Origin: Flavobacteriales bacterium
Lineage (GTDB): Bacteria; Bacteroidota; Bacteroidia; Flavobacteriales_D; Crocinitomicaceae
NCBI GenBank assembly: GCA_947475275.1
Contig: CANJNE010000005.1
Coordinates: 1-55,575, forward strand
Length of the DNA: 55,575 nt
Reading direction: 5' to 3'
How positions within the stretch are numbered: the first letter of the stretch is position 1; every line of letters starts with the position of its first letter. A model generated the notes under the pieces. It was given only the letters and a program-made list of their open reading frames with translations. It was not told the DNA's origin and did no database searches. The position numbers were made by a program, and so were the translations under genes. Shown here in pieces: positions 14,269 to 45,709 of this stretch.

Positions 14269-15132
14269 TTAATGCGTTTTAGTCATATCGTTATCAACAC
14301 AAATAATGTAATCAGCTTTTCCATAATGTTCTTTTTCCAGCTTTCCGGTGTCATCTTGAGTAACGGTTGAAATTGTGGCCAAAGATATATCTTCATTCTC
14401 ATTCAACAAGTACCAAATAATTCCCTGATAAAAATCTGTATGATAAGCTCCATTAAAATGTAAAAACACTTCATCGTTATTCCAATTTTTCAAAAGAAAA
14501 TAAGCCATTGTTGCATCCTTTATCGCTTGCGCCTCAACAAAATTAATAGCAGACCCCATGTGAGAACCCATTTCTAATAGAGCCGCATATTGTGAAAGGG
14601 TGGTATCAACAATAAAATCTAAAGGAGCCATATAGGATTTCTCTATATCTGAAAGGGAATCAAGAGAAGTTCGACCTCTTTTAAATAATCTCGATGCATA
14701 TGCTCGAGGTATATTGGAGGCCAGACAAAAAATATCATTTTGTTTGGCAAATTGAACAATAGGTTCATAATCTGTACTGTAATTCGACCAAAGCCTACAA
14801 CTGTCATTGAAGTTCTTATTGTCAATTACGCCGCTAATTAAATCATTTAAAAGAGATTGTTGATCTTGCTCAAACATTTCAAATCCCAATTTAAGCCTGT
14901 TTCCATGTTCAGAATACAAGTCTTTAGTGATTTCCAATTCCAACCAATGACTAATAGGGTTATCATGAAATTCACCAAAGAAAATAAACGACTGCTCAAG
15001 AAGCCCATTCTTCATTTTGTTCAAACTAACCTTCCTGCCTTTTGAATTGTATATAACAAACGCATCTTTTTGCCCGAATGCAATAACACAGTTTACAGAT
15101 AATAAAAAAGCAAGAATAAATTTACAAACCAT
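14269..15132 (-). CDS. ChaN family (haem-binding, Tiki-fold) exported protein
   Basis: ChaN of Campylobacter is an iron-regulated lipoprotein that binds haem. This protein has the family core: FFGEFHDNPISHWLELEI with the GE-H motif, GFEMFEQDQQSLL, and YLLLKNWN-type C-terminal elements ending with FNGAYHTDF (His). I place the start at the ATG at 15132, giving 287 residues with a clean signal peptide (MVCKFILAFLLSVNCVIAFG). A longer reading from TTG at 15159 adds a polar stretch before it. The cleavage site has Cys at -8 and no clean lipobox at the end, so the lipid anchor is uncertain. It heads the operon with the barrel, Nif3-like and zinc-ribbon genes. Confidence 0.82.
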   Translation of the reverse strand: MVCKFILAFLLSVNCVIAFGQKDAFVIYNSKGRKVSLNKMKNGLLEQSFIFFGEFHDNPISHWLELEITKDLYSEHGNRLKLGFEMFEQDQQSLLNDLISGVIDNKNFNDSCRLWSNYSTDYEPIVQFAKQNDIFCLASNIPRAYASRLFKRGRTSLDSLSDIEKSYMAPLDFIVDTTLSQYAALLEMGSHMGSAINFVEAQAIKDATMAYFLLKNWNNDEVFLHFNGAYHTDFYQGIIWYLLNENEDISLATISTVTQDDTGKLEKEHYGKADYIICVDNDMTKTH

Positions 15133-15204
15133 ATTTTGACCAAACTGAATCCTTTGCAATATTATTAAACTTCACAAAATAATTTCCTAATTTTATACTA
15201 CAGT

Positions 15205-17082
15205 ATGGATTTATTTACAAACAAATTTTCTGTAGTTAGAACAATTTGTCTTCGTTTAGGCATTGTACTTTTAATGCTAAGCCTCACTAGAATCGTTTTT
15301 TATATTTTTAATAGTGAAAGTTTTCTCGAGGCAGGTCCATGGGATTTCGTTTTGGGGATATTCTTTGACATTATTACTGTCAGTCTAGTTTTTACCCCGT
15401 TTATATTGATTGGATTAATACCTTCAATTAAATTTCAAAAATGGAAAAATATATTCCTAAAATTATATTTTCATGCAGCCAATAGTTTAATGCTTGCGCT
15501 CAATCTCATTGATGTAAAGTACTTTGAATACACAAACAAGAGATCAACTTTTGACCTATTTACCATATTGGGTGCAGGAGAAGATTTCAATCAGCTTTTC
15601 ACCACTTTTTTGATGCAGTTTTGGTACATCATTCTATTATTCATCGTATTAATTTTTCTTTCAGAATGGCTATACAGAAAGACTGATTACAAGAAACTAG
15701 AAGCATACAATTGGAAAAAAACTATTTTAAATTATGCTTTTTTTATTCCGGCAATTGTTATTATCGGAAGAGGTGGTTTTCAACTCAAACCAGTTAGTCC
15801 CATTGAGGCTGCAAGATTTGGCAATCCTCAAAATACAGCTCTAGTGCTGAACACGACATTCACGATGATCAAATCTTTTGGTAAAGAGCAATTAGAAATT
15901 AAAAACTATTTCACTGAAGATATAGCAAAAACATATTTCAATCCAATTCAAAAAAGTAATCCACAAAATATTCTAGAATCTCAAACAAATGTTGTTGTGA
16001 TCATTCTTGAAAGTTTTGGAAACGAATTCACAAATAAAAACGACATTCAACTTAGCTATACTCCTTTCTTTGACTCATTACTCAGCGAATCCTTAACCTT
16101 TGACAATGCAATTGCAAATGGAAGAAAATCTATCGAAGCTGTTCCTGCAATTTTATCATCCATTCCATCCTTAATGGAAAACCCATATATTTCTTCTTCA
16201 TACGCCAGTAATTCAATTACATCATTGGCAACAATTTTGAAAAAAGAAGGTTACCACACCTCTTTTTTCCATGGCGCAACCAATGGTTCAATGAGGTTTA
16301 ATGCTTTCAGTTCTCAAATTGGTTTTGATGCTTATTATGGTAGGACGGAATATAACAATGATGATCATTATGATGGTACTTGGGGCATTTCAGATGAATA
16401 TTTCAATCCATGGATGGCAAAAAAATTAACAACTTTTCAGCAACCATTTTTCTCAACACTGTTTACGATTTCTTCTCATCATCCTTATTACATACCTGAG
16501 CACATGAAAGATCGCTTAAAATATGGCAAAGAACCTATTTGTGCATCCTTAAATTATGCTGATTATGCCCTCAGAAAATTCTTTGAAATAGCAAAAAAAG
16601 AACCTTGGTATAATAATACCCTTTTTGTTTTGGTTGCAGACCACACTCCGGCAACAAATGATCCTGAATTTGCAGGTAAAAACAATATTTATCGCATTCC
16701 AATTGCATTTTATCACCCTAAAAATGAAAAAATTAAAAAGAAAGAAAATGTCATATTTCAGCAAATTGATATTTTACCAACAATTTTAGATTATTTAAAT
16801 ATAAATACTGAATATTATGCATTCGGTTCTTCTTACTTTTCAAACAACAAACGCTTCGCAATTAATTATTTGGAAGGTGTATATTACTATTTCTTTGACC
16901 ACTATATGATCACATACATCGAAGGTGAAGAGCCTGAATTTTATGACATAAATGCCCAAAAAAAAGGAAATAAATCTGTCAAAATTAATAATCAAACAAG
17001 CAGCTCAATTATCAATCATCTTAAAGCAATTATTCAGAGGTACAACAACGACATAATTAAAAATAGAACCTTTGTGAAATGA
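15205..17082 (+). CDS. LTA-synthase-like membrane phosphotransferase (sulfatase fold)
   Basis: The 625 residues have about five membrane spans in the first 200 residues and a large periplasmic alkaline-phosphatase/sulfatase domain from about 260. This is the architecture of lipoteichoic acid synthase and of phosphoglycerol or phosphoethanolamine transferases. The metal-site residues match LtaS: Glu269 (IILESFG), a serine nucleophile Ser309 (NGRKSIEAVP) in place of the LtaS threonine, and Asp479-His480 (VADHTP). SSHHPYYIP is also typical. Bacteroidota make no lipoteichoic acid, so the acceptor is unknown. The gene overlaps a lipid kinase gene by 4 bases, which hints at recycling of a diacylglycerol by-product. 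Confidence 0.88.
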   Translation: MDLFTNKFSVVRTICLRLGIVLLMLSLTRIVFYIFNSESFLEAGPWDFVLGIFFDIITVSLVFTPFILIGLIPSIKFQKWKNIFLKLYFHAANSLMLALNLIDVKYFEYTNKRSTFDLFTILGAGEDFNQLFTTFLMQFWYIILLFIVLIFLSEWLYRKTDYKKLEAYNWKKTILNYAFFIPAIVIIGRGGFQLKPVSPIEAARFGNPQNTALVLNTTFTMIKSFGKEQLEIKNYFTEDIAKTYFNPIQKSNPQNILESQTNVVVIILESFGNEFTNKNDIQLSYTPFFDSLLSESLTFDNAIANGRKSIEAVPAILSSIPSLMENPYISSSYASNSITSLATILKKEGYHTSFFHGATNGSMRFNAFSSQIGFDAYYGRTEYNNDDHYDGTWGISDEYFNPWMAKKLTTFQQPFFSTLFTISSHHPYYIPEHMKDRLKYGKEPICASLNYADYALRKFFEIAKKEPWYNNTLFVLVADHTPATNDPEFAGKNNIYRIPIAFYHPKNEKIKKKENVIFQQIDILPTILDYLNINTEYYAFGSSYFSNNKRFAINYLEGVYYYFFDHYMITYIEGEEPEFYDINAQKKGNKSVKINNQTSSSIINHLKAIIQRYNNDIIKNRTFVK

Positions 17083-17951
17083 AAAAAAGGATTTGTTTTA
17101 TAATCAACCCAATTTCAGGTGTGTCCAAAAAAAACAATTTACCTGAAATCATAAACTCAAATCTGGATAAAAATGTATTTGAAGCAGATTTTCAGTATAC
17201 AGAATCCAGAGGCCATGCAATAATCCTTTCCGAAGAGGCCGTTAAAAGAAACTTCGATGTTGTATGCGCAGTTGGTGGCGATGGGTCAGTTCACGAGGTA
17301 GCTAAAAGCCTAATTCATAGTAAATCTAGTTTAGCCATAATTCCATGTGGTTCAGGAAATGGTTTTGCGCGACATTTAGGTCTTCCGCTATCTATCAAAA
17401 AAGCTTTACATAGAATTAACAAGGGTAATGAGATTACAGTTGATACAGGTCTTCTTAACGAACATCATTTTATTAACGTATGTGGGTTCGGTTTTGACGC
17501 TCACATCGCCCATGAATTCGACAAATACCATAAAAGAGGATTTAATGCATACATGAGATTGGTTATCAAAGAATTCAAAAATTATAAACCACAAAGCGTG
17601 ATTCTTAAAACTAAAGATGAAAAAATTGAATCTGACATTTTCTTAACCACTATAGCTAATGCATCACAATTTGGTAATGGGTTTCAGATTTCTCCTTATT
17701 CAAATGTACATGATGGAAAATTTGAATTAATGCTTTACCGAAACGCTCCTTTTAGAAAAATGCTAACCGATTTAATTAAGTTTTTTAATGGAAGCATTCA
17801 TCGTTCATCTAATGTTACCATAAATTCATTTGAAGAAATAGAATTACATTTGGAAAATAATATTGCACATGCAGATGGCGAACCGATTATGCTTGAAAAT
17901 AATGTTGCGCGAGTAAAGGTAATCCCGAATAGTCTTAAAATTTTAACCTAA
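17079..17951 (+). CDS. Diacylglycerol/lipid kinase family protein (DgkB/YegS type)
   Basis: The 290 residues show the DAGK catalytic domain: INPISGVSKK at the start, the nucleotide-binding AVGGDGSVHEVAKSL (about 64-78), and IPCGSGNGFARHLGLP (about 88-103). The C-terminal half is the beta-sandwich lid, with HADGEPI near the end. It is a soluble enzyme that would phosphorylate diacylglycerol, undecaprenol-like or sphingoid lipids using ATP. Its start overlaps the preceding gene stop by 4 bases (ATGA), so the two are made together, and a DUF1569 gene follows after 5 bases. The lipid substrate is not decided by sequence. Confidence 0.93.
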   Translation: MKKRICFIINPISGVSKKNNLPEIINSNLDKNVFEADFQYTESRGHAIILSEEAVKRNFDVVCAVGGDGSVHEVAKSLIHSKSSLAIIPCGSGNGFARHLGLPLSIKKALHRINKGNEITVDTGLLNEHHFINVCGFGFDAHIAHEFDKYHKRGFNAYMRLVIKEFKNYKPQSVILKTKDEKIESDIFLTTIANASQFGNGFQISPYSNVHDGKFELMLYRNAPFRKMLTDLIKFFNGSIHRSSNVTINSFEEIELHLENNIAHADGEPIMLENNVARVKVIPNSLKILT

Positions 17952-24814: not shown

Positions 24815-25924
24815 TCAAATAGTTTTCAACAAAGTTTGTGCAACTTTTTTACTAGCCCCTTTACCTCCTAAAATTTCAATAAGCAAATTGTAATCCTCGA
24901 GTATTAAATCCCTCTTTTTTCCACCAATTATTACATTCTTTAATTCACAACGAACATTTTTAGGTATACATTCTTTTTGAATCAATTCTTTAACAACTTC
25001 TTTATTCATTATTAAGTTGACCAATGAAATAAACTTAATATGAACAAGTTTTTTAGCAATAAAGTATGAAATTGAAGAGCTCTTATAACAAACTACCTGA
25101 GGAACCTTGAAAAGTGCCGTTTCCAGTGTTGCAGTTCCAGAGGTTACTAATGCAGCCTCTGCATTTGCAAGAATACCATATGTATTTCCTTTTATAAAAC
25201 GAACATTTTTATTTTGATAAATTTCAAATTCTTTATCATCTAGATTGGGGGCGCATGCTACGATAATTTGATAGCATTGAAAATCCTCTAATGCCTCTAA
25301 CATAATAGGTAATTTGCGCATAATTTCTTGTTTTCGACTTCCAGGAAGAAGCGCAATTATCGGTTTATGCGACAAATGATATTTATCGAAGAATGACATT
25401 TTATCTGAAGTAATTTGATATTCTTCTATTGCATCTAAAAGAGGATTACCTACATATTCTACATTATAATCGTATTGCTCGTAAAACTCTTTCTCAAATG
25501 GAAGGATAACAAACATTTTATAAACGCAACGTTTAATTTTGAAAACTCTAGATTTTTTCCAAGCCCAAACTTGAGGAGAGATATAATAAAACACTTTGAT
25601 ACCGTTGGCATGAGCCCATTCCGCAATTCTCAAATTAAATCCAGGGTAATCAACTAAAACCAAAGCATCAGGCTTAAATTCTAGAATATCTTTTTTACAA
25701 AACCTTAGGTTCTGAATAATCTTTTTTATGTTAAAAAGTACTTCAATAAACCCCATAAAAGCTAGTTCTTTTATGTGTTTAACTAAAGTCCCACCAATAC
25801 TTTGCATGTAATTACCTCCCCAAAAACGAAAATTAATATTTTCATTTTCTTGCTTAAGTGCTTTCATTAGATTACCACCATGAAGATCACCAGAGGCCTC
25901 TCCTGCAATTATATAGATTTTCAA
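24815..25924 (-). CDS. lpxB: Lipid-A-disaccharide synthase LpxB (probable TTG start)
   Basis: LpxB joins UDP-2,3-diacylglucosamine to 2,3-diacylglucosamine-1-phosphate to form the lipid A disaccharide. The protein begins with the conserved YIIAGEASGDLHGG and continues with DYPGFNLRIAEWA, FYYISPQVWAWKKSR, LPGSRKQEI and SGTATLETAL. I choose TTG at 25924 (369 residues) because it places the usual N-terminus (MKIYIIAGEASG) exactly at the start. A longer reading to 25990 overlaps the upstream gene by about 46 bases and adds residues not conserved in the family. It follows the 103-residue membrane protein gene. Confidence 0.93.
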   Translation of the reverse strand: MKIYIIAGEASGDLHGGNLMKALKQENENINFRFWGGNYMQSIGGTLVKHIKELAFMGFIEVLFNIKKIIQNLRFCKKDILEFKPDALVLVDYPGFNLRIAEWAHANGIKVFYYISPQVWAWKKSRVFKIKRCVYKMFVILPFEKEFYEQYDYNVEYVGNPLLDAIEEYQITSDKMSFFDKYHLSHKPIIALLPGSRKQEIMRKLPIMLEALEDFQCYQIIVACAPNLDDKEFEIYQNKNVRFIKGNTYGILANAEAALVTSGTATLETALFKVPQVVCYKSSSISYFIAKKLVHIKFISLVNLIMNKEVVKELIQKECIPKNVRCELKNVIIGGKKRDLILEDYNLLIEILGGKGASKKVAQTLLKTI

Positions 25925-25944
25925 TTCTCGTTCCAAATGCTTCC

Positions 25945-26256
25945 TTAACCGTAATAAAAATTGATATATAGAATATATGGCAGGTAACATATTGTACCCA
26001 AAATGACACCCATTGCAAAGTTGTATTTTTCACGATTTAAAGACATGTAAAACCATAAAAGATTTGAAATACAAGAAATGGAAAGGTATTTACCTTTGAA
26101 AACAATCTCATTTCCGAATTTATGCCAAATAGTATCAAAAGGGTAATTCTGCACCCATGCCATAACAAAAATTACAATGGGAATAAAAACTACTGGTGAA
26201 ATTAATCCAACCAATAAACCTTTTGTATGCGATAACTTCCACTTTCTTAGATTCAT
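25945..26256 (-). CDS. Small integral membrane protein between surE and lpxB
   Basis: This 103-residue protein (ATG at 26256, overlapping the surE stop by 4 bases as ATGA) has hydrophobic stretches at about 16-38, 57-70 and 80-98, giving two to three membrane spans. I do not recognise a known domain. In Bacteroidota an unassigned small membrane protein of this kind is often found in this place, which suggests a link with lipid A or the surE-lpxB operon, but this is from memory and not proven. A start at 26265 (TTG) is less likely. Confidence 0.7.
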   Translation of the reverse strand: MNLRKWKLSHTKGLLVGLISPVVFIPIVIFVMAWVQNYPFDTIWHKFGNEIVFKGKYLSISCISNLLWFYMSLNREKYNFAMGVILGTICYLPYILYINFYYG

Positions 26257-34912: not shown

Positions 34913-36183
34913 AGGTAGATGTTTTACTTGGGCTCCAATGGGGCGATGAAGGTAAAGGAAAAATTGTTGATGTTCTTACACCTCGATATGATATTATTGC
35001 GCGTTTTCAAGGGGGACCAAATGCTGGACACACATTAGAATTTGAAGGAATCAAACACGTTCTTCATACCATTCCATCTGGAATTTTTAGGGAGAATGTA
35101 ATCAATATAGTTGGAAATGGTGTAGTGATAGATCCTGTGATTTTTCAAAAGGAACTCGAAAAACTAGAACCATTTAATATTAATGTCAAAGACCGTTTGC
35201 TTATATCAAAGAAAGCGCATTTGATCCTTCCAACACACCGATTGTTGGACGCTGCATCAGAAGCGGCAAAAGGGAAAAACAAAATAGGTAGTACGCTTAA
35301 AGGCATTGGTCCCACATATATGGACAAAACAGGCCGAAATGGTCTTCGTGTTGGAGACATCTATACAGCTAATTTCCAAGAAAAATACAATGCGCTAGTT
35401 GAAAAACACGTTGGAATTTTGAAGCACCATGAAAATTTCGAATACAACCTGGAAGAGCTAGAAAAACCTTGGATGGAAGGTATCAATGTTCTTCGCCAAT
35501 TAACTGCAATTGATAGCGAACAATATATCAATGATGCGCTTAAAAATGGCAAGAAAATTCTTGCTGAAGGAGCACAAGGAACCATGCTTGACATTGATTT
35601 TGGAACGTATCCATTCGTGACTTCATCAAATACAGTCACTGCAGGAACTTGTACAGGTTTGGGTGTAGCTCCAACTAAAATTGGAAATGTAATTGGAATA
35701 TTTAAAGCCTATTGTACCAGAGTAGGTAGTGGTCCTTTTCCAACTGAATTGAACGATGAAACTGGAGAGAGAATCCGAGCTTTAGGCCATGAATTTGGCG
35801 CTACAACAGGTCGTCCAAGGAGATGCGGATGGCTTGATATTCCTCAAATGAAGTATGCAATAATGATCAATGGGGTTACTGAACTTTCTATGATGAAATC
35901 AGATGTTTTAGGTTCATTTGAAAAAATCAAAGTTTGCACACATTATCTCTTAAATGGTGAAAAAATAGAACATTTCCCTTATGATGTGGTCGACTCGAAT
36001 TTGATTCCTGTTTTCGAAGAACTTGAAGGTTGGAATTGTGATTTAACGCAATTGAATAACTATTCAGAATCCCCTAAAGCTCTGCAGAACTATGTAAATT
36101 ATTTGGAACAAAAATTGGAGGTGCCAATTACCGTTGTATCTGTTGGTCCCGATCGCAAACAGACGCTGGATAATAAACATTAA
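34909..36183 (+). CDS. purA: Adenylosuccinate synthase PurA
   Basis: PurA joins IMP and aspartate with GTP to form adenylosuccinate, the committed AMP step. The 424 residues carry LGLQWGDEGKGKIVD (catalytic Asp13 equivalent and P-loop), GPNAGHTLEF, the GTP site and EGAQGTMLDIDFGTYPFVTSS. The length is normal. It overlaps the STAS gene by 4 bases and the OstA-like gene by 1 base (TAATG), so four genes from fur on are closely packed. Confidence 0.97.
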   Translation: MKVDVLLGLQWGDEGKGKIVDVLTPRYDIIARFQGGPNAGHTLEFEGIKHVLHTIPSGIFRENVINIVGNGVVIDPVIFQKELEKLEPFNINVKDRLLISKKAHLILPTHRLLDAASEAAKGKNKIGSTLKGIGPTYMDKTGRNGLRVGDIYTANFQEKYNALVEKHVGILKHHENFEYNLEELEKPWMEGINVLRQLTAIDSEQYINDALKNGKKILAEGAQGTMLDIDFGTYPFVTSSNTVTAGTCTGLGVAPTKIGNVIGIFKAYCTRVGSGPFPTELNDETGERIRALGHEFGATTGRPRRCGWLDIPQMKYAIMINGVTELSMMKSDVLGSFEKIKVCTHYLLNGEKIEHFPYDVVDSNLIPVFEELEGWNCDLTQLNNYSESPKALQNYVNYLEQKLEVPITVVSVGPDRKQTLDNKH

Positions 36184-37721
36184 TGCTTTTGATAAACCGA
36201 AATTTCAAAATTGCGCTACTCTTAAGCGCATTTTTTTTGAATCAGCATACTTATTTTGCTCAAAGCGGAACGCTCGAGCTTTTACCTGGTTCTGAATTGT
36301 TGGGCTATGATGTTAAAACAGGTGCTCACAGACTTATTGGAACCGTAAATTTTGTTTATCAAGGCAATACCATGTACTGTGATTCTGCTCATTATTTTGA
36401 AAAAAAGAAAGCGGTAAAAGCTTATGGTAATGTTCAAATAACCAAAGATGATGTGAATTTATATTGTGACTCTTTGTATTATGATGGAAAAAATAAGAAG
36501 GCAAAACTATGGGGACATGTCAGAGCAAGAGATATGGAATATAAAATCACCACAGATTCTTTGGATTATGATGCAAAAAAAGGCAGAGGAACATACAGAA
36601 ACAAAGGAAAAATAGAGAGTATTACATCAAACGAAAGCATTACCAGCCAATTCGGTTATTTCTATCCCGAATCCAAAGATTTTTTCTTTAAGGGAAATGT
36701 TAAATATCGAAATGGAGATCTTACTATGTCAACTGACACCCTTCAATTTACATACAGCAAACAATTGAGTACATTTTTTGGTCCTACAACCATAAAAAAA
36801 GGAAAAACGATAATGTTTTGCGAAAAAGGTTGGTATAATGTAAAAACTGAAGAAGGAAGTTTAATAGAAAATGCATATTTAATTGAAGAAAGTAAAACGA
36901 TAAAAGGAGATACACTATTATATCAACCGAAAAAAGGCTTGTCTATTGCAAAAGGGCATGTTTATTTTGAGGACACCATCGAAAAGTCAAAATTATACGG
37001 AAATTATGGTGAGATCTCTGATTTTGAGCATTCAACATTACTCACTGGTAACAGTCGTATTGTAAAGATTCAAAAAAATGATACCATTTATGTATCAGCG
37101 GATACTATTTTCAGTCAAAATGACACGCTAGATCAACCATTGTTTTATAATGCCTATCATAATGTGATGGTATACAATTCTGCGATGCAAGCGGTATCAG
37201 ACAGTTTGCATTTTGCTGATTCTATTCAAAAAATGGAATTATTTGGCAGTCCAATAATTTGGTCAAAAAACACCGAACTTAAAGCGGATACGATGCATGT
37301 ATATTTGGCTGATTCAGTCATAAAGAATGTTCACATGTATCATAATGCATTTGCCATAATGGAACTGGATTCTGGTGAATTCTATAATCAAGTAAACGGC
37401 AACATTATGGAGGCTTTATTTAGGGATGGTGAAATATACGAAACCATTGTGGATGGGAATGCTCAAACCATATTCTATCCAGAGGAGACTGTAAAAACCG
37501 ACAGCAACACCATTATTAAAAGAATGGGAATGAACGCTTTAATAAGCAATGACATCAAAATTTTCCTGGACAGTGGAGAGGTCACGAAATTGATTTACAA
37601 TACGGAACCTGAAGGAATTTTTTATCCCATGGAAGAATTAAATGCGGATGTTCAATTTATCGAAGGATTTTCGTGGAATGAAGCTTTGAGACCTAGAAAG
37701 CTATCATTTTCTATTCCTTAA
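36183..37721 (+). CDS. OstA-like protein (LptA/LptD N-terminal beta-jelly-roll repeats)
   Basis: The 512 residues start with a signal peptide (cut after HTYFA, before QSGT) and contain repeats of the OstA/LptA beta-jelly roll: GNTMYCDSAHYFEKKKAVKA, VNLYCDSLYYDGKNKKAKL, TTDSLDYDAKKGRGTYRN and so on, each with a DS-Y and GNV-like pattern. LptA and LptD carry LPS through the periplasm to the outer membrane. Bacteroidota have similar OstA-like proteins of this size, so an LPS-transport role is likely but unproven. There is no C-terminal barrel. It is convergent with rel/spoT, and the stops overlap by 4 bases. Confidence 0.88.
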   Translation: MLLINRNFKIALLLSAFFLNQHTYFAQSGTLELLPGSELLGYDVKTGAHRLIGTVNFVYQGNTMYCDSAHYFEKKKAVKAYGNVQITKDDVNLYCDSLYYDGKNKKAKLWGHVRARDMEYKITTDSLDYDAKKGRGTYRNKGKIESITSNESITSQFGYFYPESKDFFFKGNVKYRNGDLTMSTDTLQFTYSKQLSTFFGPTTIKKGKTIMFCEKGWYNVKTEEGSLIENAYLIEESKTIKGDTLLYQPKKGLSIAKGHVYFEDTIEKSKLYGNYGEISDFEHSTLLTGNSRIVKIQKNDTIYVSADTIFSQNDTLDQPLFYNAYHNVMVYNSAMQAVSDSLHFADSIQKMELFGSPIIWSKNTELKADTMHVYLADSVIKNVHMYHNAFAIMELDSGEFYNQVNGNIMEALFRDGEIYETIVDGNAQTIFYPEETVKTDSNTIIKRMGMNALISNDIKIFLDSGEVTKLIYNTEPEGIFYPMEELNADVQFIEGFSWNEALRPRKLSFSIP

Positions 37722-44461: not shown

Positions 44462-45709
44462 ATGGTACAAGATATTTTTGAAAAAATAAAGAGTAACCGA
44501 GGACCTATAGGTCAGCATGCAAAAGAGTCTCATGGATATTTTACTTTCCCAAAACTAGAAGGCGAAATCGGTCCTCACATGATATTCAGAGGAAAAAAAC
44601 GTTTGAATTGGAGTTTGAATAACTATCTAGGTTTGGCAAATCATCCAGAAGTTAGAAAAGCTGATGCAGATGCCGCAGCAGATTTTGGTTTCGCAGCTCC
44701 TATGGGTGCACGTATGATGAGTGGAAATTCCAATTATCATGAACAACTTGAATCTGAACTTTCTGCATTTGTAGAAAAACAAGATACCATACTATGTAAT
44801 TTTGGATATCAAGCAATGGTATCTGCAATAGATTGCTTGGTTGATAGAAGAGATGTAATCGTTTATGATGCTGAATCCCATGCCTGTATTTTAGACGGGG
44901 TAAGATTGCACATGGGTAAACGTTATGTTTTCAAACACAATGACGTTGAGGATTGCGAAAAGCAACTTGAACGCGCTACCAAATTAGCAGAAGAACAAGG
45001 CGGAGCGATTCTCGTAATTACCGAAGGTGTATTTGGTATGAGGGGTGATCAAGGTAGGGTAAAAGAAATAGTTGATCTAAAGAAAAAATTCAATTTCAGA
45101 TTGTTTGTTGATGATGCACACGGAATTGGAACTCTTGGTGCAAAAGGCGGGGGCACTGGTCAAGAACAGGGTTGTCAAGATGGTATCGATGTTTATTTTG
45201 GAACTTTTGCAAAATCCTTTGGTTTGATTGGTGGTTTCATTTCATCTGATGAGCAAGTTGTAGAATATTTACGTTACAATATGCGTTCTCAGATTTTTGC
45301 AAAGGCATTGCCGCTTCCATTAGTTGTAGGGGCTTTGAAAAGATTAGAACTCATGCGAAACCTTCCGGAATTGAAAGACAATTTGTGGAAAATCACTAAT
45401 GCGCTTCAAAAAGGTTTGATAGATGCTGGTTTCGATATAGGAGTTACTGACTCTTGTGTAACGCCTGTTTATATGAACGGTTCAATTCCTGAATCTACCA
45501 ATTTAATTTATGACTTAAGAGAAAATTATAACATCTTCTGTTCAATGGTTGTATATCCTGTTGTGCCGAAGGGAATGATTATTCTTCGTCTTATTCCAAC
45601 TGCTGTGCACACCCTTGAGGATGTTGAATATACCATTGAATGTTTCTCAAAAATCGTTGGAAAATTAAAAGCTGGTGAATACATGTCTGACAAAATTGCT
45701 TCAGTATAA
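44462..45709 (+). CDS. Alpha-oxoamine synthase family PLP enzyme (serine-palmitoyltransferase-like)
   Basis: The 415 residues form a fold-type I PLP enzyme of the AONS/KBL/SPT group: NNYLGLANHPEVRKA, GARMMSGNSNYHEQLESEL, FVDDAHGIGTLG and the PLP lysine in GTFAKSFGLIGG (about 249). This sequence type in Bacteroidota is annotated variously as serine palmitoyltransferase, KBL or 8-amino-7-oxononanoate synthase. The extended N-terminus (KESHGYFTFPKLEGEIGPHM) is found in the long-chain type. A role in sphingolipid or sulfonolipid (capnine) base synthesis is the best guess, condensing an amino acid with an acyl-thioester. It is a single gene followed by a terminator. Confidence 0.88.
   Translation: MVQDIFEKIKSNRGPIGQHAKESHGYFTFPKLEGEIGPHMIFRGKKRLNWSLNNYLGLANHPEVRKADADAAADFGFAAPMGARMMSGNSNYHEQLESELSAFVEKQDTILCNFGYQAMVSAIDCLVDRRDVIVYDAESHACILDGVRLHMGKRYVFKHNDVEDCEKQLERATKLAEEQGGAILVITEGVFGMRGDQGRVKEIVDLKKKFNFRLFVDDAHGIGTLGAKGGGTGQEQGCQDGIDVYFGTFAKSFGLIGGFISSDEQVVEYLRYNMRSQIFAKALPLPLVVGALKRLELMRNLPELKDNLWKITNALQKGLIDAGFDIGVTDSCVTPVYMNGSIPESTNLIYDLRENYNIFCSMVVYPVVPKGMIILRLIPTAVHTLEDVEYTIECFSKIVGKLKAGEYMSDKIASV

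Follow-up and report, generated by a model that had tools for sequence, protein, structure and literature searches.

In Gram-positive bacteria, the lipoteichoic acid synthase LtaS uses phosphatidylglycerol (PG) and DgkB recycles the diacylglycerol, forming a two-step cycle. In E. coli, OpgB/MdoB and DgkA combine headgroup transfer to an envelope acceptor, the periplasmic glucans, with recycling of diacylglycerol. Both LtaS and OpgB are generally taken to be PG users. OpgB has been described as a phosphoglycerol transferase (PMC12658134), and mcr-3, which encodes a transferase that uses phosphatidylethanolamine (PE), has been reported beside dgkA (PMC7559476). Here we describe a relative of LtaS whose gene has stayed with that of a lipid kinase across a class in which no sampled genome has PgsA over cut-off, and we consider which headgroup it is likely to transfer.

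An overlapping transferase-kinase gene pair

The window (the whole stretch of DNA that was analysed, 55,575 nucleotides from a Flavobacteriales bacterium of the Crocinitomicaceae) carries the pair and its immediate neighbours in the following arrangement:

14269-15159, minus strand: ChaN-like gene for a haem-binding protein, divergent from the synthase
15160-15204, plus strand: 45-base divergent spacer between the ChaN-like gene and the synthase, the presumed promoter region
15205-17082, plus strand: LtaS-type membrane phosphotransferase (the synthase), ORF of 625 aa
17079-17951, plus strand: YegS/DgkB-type soluble lipid kinase (the kinase), ORF of 290 aa
17957-18409, plus strand: DUF1569 protein, ORF of 150 aa

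The bases ATGA at 17079-17082 are common to the synthase stop and the kinase start, which agrees with the reading frames and 4-base overlap given in the original prediction. After the kinase stop comes a gap of 5 bases and then the start of DUF1569. The spacer holds a promoter-like match at 15171-15199, to which we give no weight because many such matches occur across the region, and a scan of the locus found no terminator-like site. The ChaN-like gene is kept beside the synthase in 14 of the 61 order-set loci.

The pair is conserved across the class

A survey of related genomes, proposed with the original prediction, found the pair to be conserved. The 299 genomes surveyed in the order divide into 117 that carry synthase and kinase, 4 that carry just the synthase, 8 that carry just the kinase and 170 that lack both. 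Presence was scored with cuts of 194 bits for the synthase and 152 bits for the kinase, which we placed visually where the listed scores showed gaps, and the Fisher test on this set ignores relatedness. The genes are adjacent and co-directional in 87 of the 117 genomes with both. Outside genus g2 every pair is adjacent (76/76), whereas inside it 11 of 41 are; the other 30 g2 pairs are split, with both genes still in the genome. DUF1569 still adjoins each of the four split g2 kinases that we fetched.

The linkage extends beyond the window's family. In a class sample of 295 genomes, 137 from outside this family have the synthase among the matches listed, and the kinase lies directly behind it in at least 61 of them, representing at least 20 families beyond the window's own. 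A further 35 of the 137 have no kinase among the matches listed, where one may still be present. Adjacency was counted as kinase 3' of synthase; hence, the kinase is 3' in every adjacent case counted. These counts rest on the 299-genome order set and the 295-genome class set. The neighbourhoods compared below (60 from the order and 40 from the class) were picked from match lists, mostly from genomes with both genes, and their adjacency rate is biased. Synthase and kinase genes adjoin each other far more often than chance would allow. The two sets of protein distances are correlated over 86 loci (Mantel r 0.77, reached by 0 of 2000 permutations), a value that shared descent alone would also give.

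The nearest named relatives are two MAGs, one of Flavobacteriales at 80% identity and one of Fluviicola at 52%. A scan of named relatives covered 9 loci; within the DNA covered, the kinase is beside the synthase in L049 and L050 and not beside it in Flavobacterium silvisoli (L051). The kinase at L050:9824-10743 shifts frame partway in this MAG, through assembly error or in reality. Full-text searching, with most subscription papers outside its reach, found no paper on this pair.

Neighbouring genes and separated pairs

The DUF1569 protein matches PF07606 (E 2.1e-9, 38.1 bits, cut-off 21), and its gene had been suggested as a possible member of the system. The suggestion holds in part: the gene follows the kinase in 35 of the 61 order-set loci, window included, but it is beside the pair in none of 40 class loci from outside the order set. 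We therefore rejected DUF1569 as a core part; it is a lineage-specific, family-level accessory addition. Four histidines (His37, His139, His142 and His143) are conserved in 35 DUF1569 sequences, and DinB_2 (PF12867) matches weakly (E 0.012, 16.5 bits against a cut-off of 24.8). A single-sequence structure model was unusable (pLDDT 46.8). The histidines and the weak match suggest a small metal enzyme, and no more. Across the 61 order-set loci, we found no conserved neighbour able to name an acceptor. The most frequent neighbours beyond DUF1569 are methylmalonyl-CoA mutase subunits (17-18 of 61 loci), an arrangement that looks like local synteny.

The genes can part, as shown by loci that hold either one alone. 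Eight of the 125 kinase-bearing order genomes have no synthase by our cut. Two of them, from one genus (G153 and G187; loci L187 and L188), keep the kinase, DUF1569 and the downstream mutase gene with no synthase match there, and these are natural losses of the synthase. In G244, a C-terminal synthase match lies directly upstream of the kinase, and in G045 its neighbour, in the opposite orientation, is a divergent LtaS-like gene that is spread over two overlapping frames (L191:1018-2845). G166 and G215 have no synthase match; their kinase is beside an Exo_endo_phos gene (L192:5695-6729 and L193:3397-4431), whose product is perhaps another lipid-headgroup cleaving partner. Conversely, four genomes have no kinase match: G189, G198 and G256, whose synthase is divergent, and G169, in which it stands at about 40%. 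In G189 and G198, DUF1569 directly follows the synthase.

Some further LtaS-like sequences were seen along the way. Contig C28 of the source genome encodes a second LtaS-like membrane protein near a thioredoxin gene (L002:1264-3153, minus strand), with no kinase within the DNA covered, and many other members of the window's family likewise show a second, weaker match. At G270:C7:726899-728763, the synthase match is broken into two pieces, and an intact kinase comes right after them.

A predicted LtaS-type catalytic core with a changed headgroup pocket

The synthase has an N-terminal membrane region, with hydrophobic segments between residues 7 and 192, and a C-terminal catalytic domain at about 245-620. 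It matches the Pfam Sulfatase family (PF00884; E 2.6e-36, 125.9 bits, cut-off 25), and its site residues are Glu269, Ser309, His356, Asp397, His425, Asp479 and His480. In a sequence search of solved structures, the closest relative is VP1736 of Vibrio (3lxq, E 5.6e-36), and LtaS and LtaP match at E 3e-18 to 8e-14. In NCBIfam the best matches, to LtaS and to phosphoglycerol transferase I, all stay far under cut-off: the curated LtaS model NF053595 gives 89.4 bits against a cut-off of 970, and the OpgB models NF003000 and NF009027 give 42 against 574 and 56.5 against 572.

A structure model (pLDDT 67.9, built with ten sequences, loops around the site below 50) gave a similar ranking. It superimposes on VP1736 with a Z score of 34.9 (rmsd 3.1, 367 residues) and on LtaS and LtaP with Z scores of 31-33, the matched region being about 230-625. 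Taken together, VP1736 and the LtaS-class chains score 31-35 over 347-367 residues, compared with about 24 for sulfatases and about 22 for PbgA (rmsd 16 over 430 residues). Among the best sequence and fold matches listed, LtaS-type proteins are nearest, and EptA/MCR do not appear; this absence carries no weight against kinship with EptA/MCR, although we do not file the synthase as EptA.

The metal in LtaS is reported to be held by Glu255, Thr300, Asp475 and His476 (PMC9131456). When aligned to solved LtaS, with LtaS residues counted from the aligned chain, Ser309 falls on Thr300, and Glu269, Asp479 and His480 fall on the metal ligands. Likewise, His356 falls on His347, Met363 on Trp354, Phe365 on Arg356 and His425 on His416. 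We aligned 99 synthases: the window's, 60 from the order and 38 from the class, leaving out L173 and L176, whose synthase was missed by the gene caller. Glu269, Ser309, Asp397, His425, Asp479 and His480 are identical in all 99, so that the nucleophile is always serine, whereas LtaS has threonine.

The pocket differs from that of LtaS, where glycerol phosphate can bind His347, Arg356 and His416, with Arg356 able to hydrogen-bond (PMC9131456). The two histidines are kept here as His356 and His425, but the LtaS set of contacts is incomplete, since Phe365 replaces the arginine in 97 of 99 sequences; Met363 likewise occurs in 97 of 99. Overall, the invariant catalytic residues and the exchange of Arg356 and Trp354 for Phe and Met indicate a catalytic core that is probably intact and a headgroup pocket that appears changed in a conserved manner. 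Filing the synthase as LtaS or OpgB was rejected because of the curated scores, the missing glycerol-phosphate arginine and the lack of a matching donor pathway.

A YegS/DgkB-type lipid kinase

The kinase matches DAGK_cat (PF00781, E 2.5e-28) and YegS_C (PF19279, E 3.8e-20), both over cut-off, and belongs to TIGR00147 (YegS/Rv2252/BmrU; 154.9 bits, cut-off 118.65); the equivalog models listed beside TIGR00147 were not reached. Its GGDG and GSGNG motifs are conserved in the alignment, and its nearest chains are DgkB-type and YegS (E about 1e-18 to 1e-21). The two assignments of the original prediction, a DgkB/YegS-type kinase and an LtaS-like site of Glu269, Ser309, Asp479 and His480, were thus borne out. 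Diacylglycerol, as the by-product of headgroup transfer, would be the simplest substrate. Elsewhere, the source genome encodes a DgkA-type protein that may be another diacylglycerol kinase and could share this task.

Phosphatidylethanolamine is the favoured donor

No genome of the order (0/299) or of 198 sampled from the class has PgsA (TIGR00560) over cut-off, compared with 6 of 14 controls; the nearest in the order, G132, reaches 95 bits against 109.1. At E 1e-12 the model matches 1 of 198 class genomes versus 8 of 14 controls. At E 1e-3 it matches 249 of the 299 order genomes, and the match in the source genome is a PssA-like protein. This protein (102 bits against a cut-off of 107) is the single CDP-alcohol transferase (PF01066) of the source genome, which also has a Psd gene. 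Our search for a PG route covered PgsA; PG could still be made by another route, through phospholipase-D type cardiolipin/PG synthases.

PE is reported for the Crocinitomicaceae isolate 4-911, and the available text of that paper does not contain the word phosphatidylglycerol (PMC12313589). PE and PI are reported from B. thetaiotaomicron (PMC8791184). Diphosphatidylglycerol has been described in some other families of Bacteroidetes (PMC6767994), and PG may therefore occur in parts of the phylum. As judged from these genomes, the absence of PgsA over cut-off, the lone PssA-like transferase together with Psd, and the replacement of the LtaS arginine favour phosphoethanolamine over phosphoglycerol as the transferred group.

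A proposed phosphoethanolamine transfer cycle

We consider it somewhat more probable than not that the pair transfers phosphoethanolamine from PE to an envelope acceptor and recycles the diacylglycerol through the kinase. Acting on PE of the inner membrane's outer leaflet, the synthase would remove phosphoethanolamine by way of a Ser309-linked, metal-dependent intermediate. It would then pass the group to a candidate acceptor, such as lipid A/core or a different glycan or glycolipid of the surface, and diacylglycerol would remain. The kinase would phosphorylate this diacylglycerol from the cytoplasmic side, giving phosphatidic acid, which could return to PE through CDP-diacylglycerol, PssA and Psd. 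The gene order, the class-wide linkage, the intact catalytic residues, the PssA-like and Psd genes and the lack of any PgsA over cut-off were observed directly; from these we infer the donor, the product, the acceptor, the kinase substrate and the coupling. The original prediction of a transfer cycle onto an envelope acceptor is supported in part, by a conserved, co-directional transferase-kinase pair of Bacteroidota that fits headgroup transfer and recycling; of the two headgroups it had offered, phosphoethanolamine is favoured and phosphoglycerol is not.

Co-occurrence, adjacency, the invariant site, the lack of PgsA, the Arg to Phe exchange and the mcr-3/dgkA precedent all count for the PE cycle. 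Counting against it, the nearest proteins among the matches listed belong to the LtaS type, in which PG is the donor of the known members, and not to EptA/MCR, which use PE. The parting of the genes, including the 30 of 41 split g2 pairs, the second DgkA-type kinase and the lack of a linked acceptor gene also weigh against it. As for the acceptor, the window encodes LpxB (24815-25990, minus strand) and an OstA/LptA-like protein (36183-37721, plus strand), which indicates synthesis and export of lipid A, one candidate for the acceptor. In Capnocytophaga canimorsus (Flavobacteriaceae), phosphoethanolamine is reported to be added to lipid A by EptA, encoded in an lpxE-eptA operon (PMC4730577).

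Alternative explanations

The closest sequence and fold relatives, VP1736 and LtaS, and the best NCBIfam matches, far under cut-off as they are, would suit transfer of phosphoglycerol from PG as in LtaS/OpgB, with the kinase recycling diacylglycerol. Set against this are the lack of PgsA over cut-off in every sampled genome of the order and class, a source genome whose only CDP-alcohol transferase is PssA-like, the loss of the glycerol-phosphate arginine to phenylalanine, and the PE of isolate 4-911, with no PG named in the available text (PMC12313589); we regard this route as improbable. It is also unlikely that the genes are co-inherited for expression, with the kinase serving general phospholipid turnover from several diacylglycerol sources and only loosely linked to the transferase. 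Kinases without a synthase (8/125 genomes, two with conserved surroundings) and the split g2 pairs (30/41) point that way, but both genes stay in all 30 split genomes and they are usually missing together (170 of 299 lack both).

The large protein might instead act mainly as a sensor or a regulator that binds lipids, as PbgA/YejM does, or might simply hydrolyse phospholipids with no acceptor involved, in which case the kinase would clear diacylglycerol or set the level of phosphatidic acid. PbgA is a full-length structural relative and no acceptor gene is linked; yet the LtaS-type metal ligands and nucleophile are invariant (99/99), unlike those of YejM, and LtaS-class matches score well over PbgA, making such a role quite improbable. 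The kinase could also act on a sphingoid base or ceramide, its place by the transferase reflecting sphingolipid headgroup chemistry such as ethanolamine phosphoceramide, which Bacteroides is reported to make (PMC8791184). Sphingosine kinase 1 is a distant match (E 0.007), but DgkB and YegS are much closer. Serine palmitoyltransferase (NF047600) is over cut-off in 1 of 299 order genomes, G215, which has the kinase and no synthase, and on this ground we rejected a sphingolipid link for the order. The two candidates scanned in the source genome fall under the cut-off, and the protein at 44462-45709 (plus strand) of the window is close to cysteate C-fatty acyltransferase (28eh, E 2.6e-176), not serine palmitoyltransferase; the organism therefore probably makes sulfonolipids, not sphingolipids. 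A sphingoid-base substrate, which the original prediction had named as grounds for refuting it, is thus highly improbable.

Returning to the PE cycle, a broader form of it is plausible at somewhat less than even chance: a class-wide, PG-independent cycle of Bacteroidia in which an LtaS-descended transferase switched to PE, with a changed pocket, a serine nucleophile and a dedicated kinase, and decorates a common, so far unrecognised envelope component. The PE reading predicts PE-fed phosphoethanolamine transfer in Bacteroidota and offers a role for the protein annotated as 'YegS family lipid kinase'. If true, this reading would give aquatic and other Bacteroidota a further envelope modification. 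It also cautions against the automatic label 'LTA synthase'.

Comparison with known systems

Like PbgA/YejM, the synthase joins a membrane part to an LtaS-type periplasmic domain. The site of YejM is reported as altered (Asp268, Thr302, Asn403, Arg451 and His468; PMC7576196), whereas the metal and nucleophile residues here are intact in 99 of 99 sequences. The EptA/MCR system, as seen in mcr-3-dgkA, resembles the pair in placing a transferase beside a diacylglycerol kinase gene and in the donor expected here, PE. It differs in that the synthase is nearest the LtaS type among the matches listed and in that its kinase belongs to a family unrelated to DgkA.

With OpgB/MdoB-DgkA, the pair shares a Gram-negative host and a proposed cycle that moves a headgroup onto an envelope acceptor and recycles the diacylglycerol. 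However, the synthase scores far under the OpgB models, no PG route was found, and the kinase is a soluble YegS-type protein in place of the small membrane protein DgkA. The LtaS-DgkB system is similar in its membrane transferase, with a site of Glu, a hydroxyl nucleophile, Asp and His, and in its soluble DgkB-type kinase. In contrast to that system, serine here takes the place of threonine, the arginine and its neighbouring tryptophan have become phenylalanine and methionine in 97 of 99 synthases, and the host is a Gram-negative in which no PgsA was found and the two genes are adjacent and overlapping.
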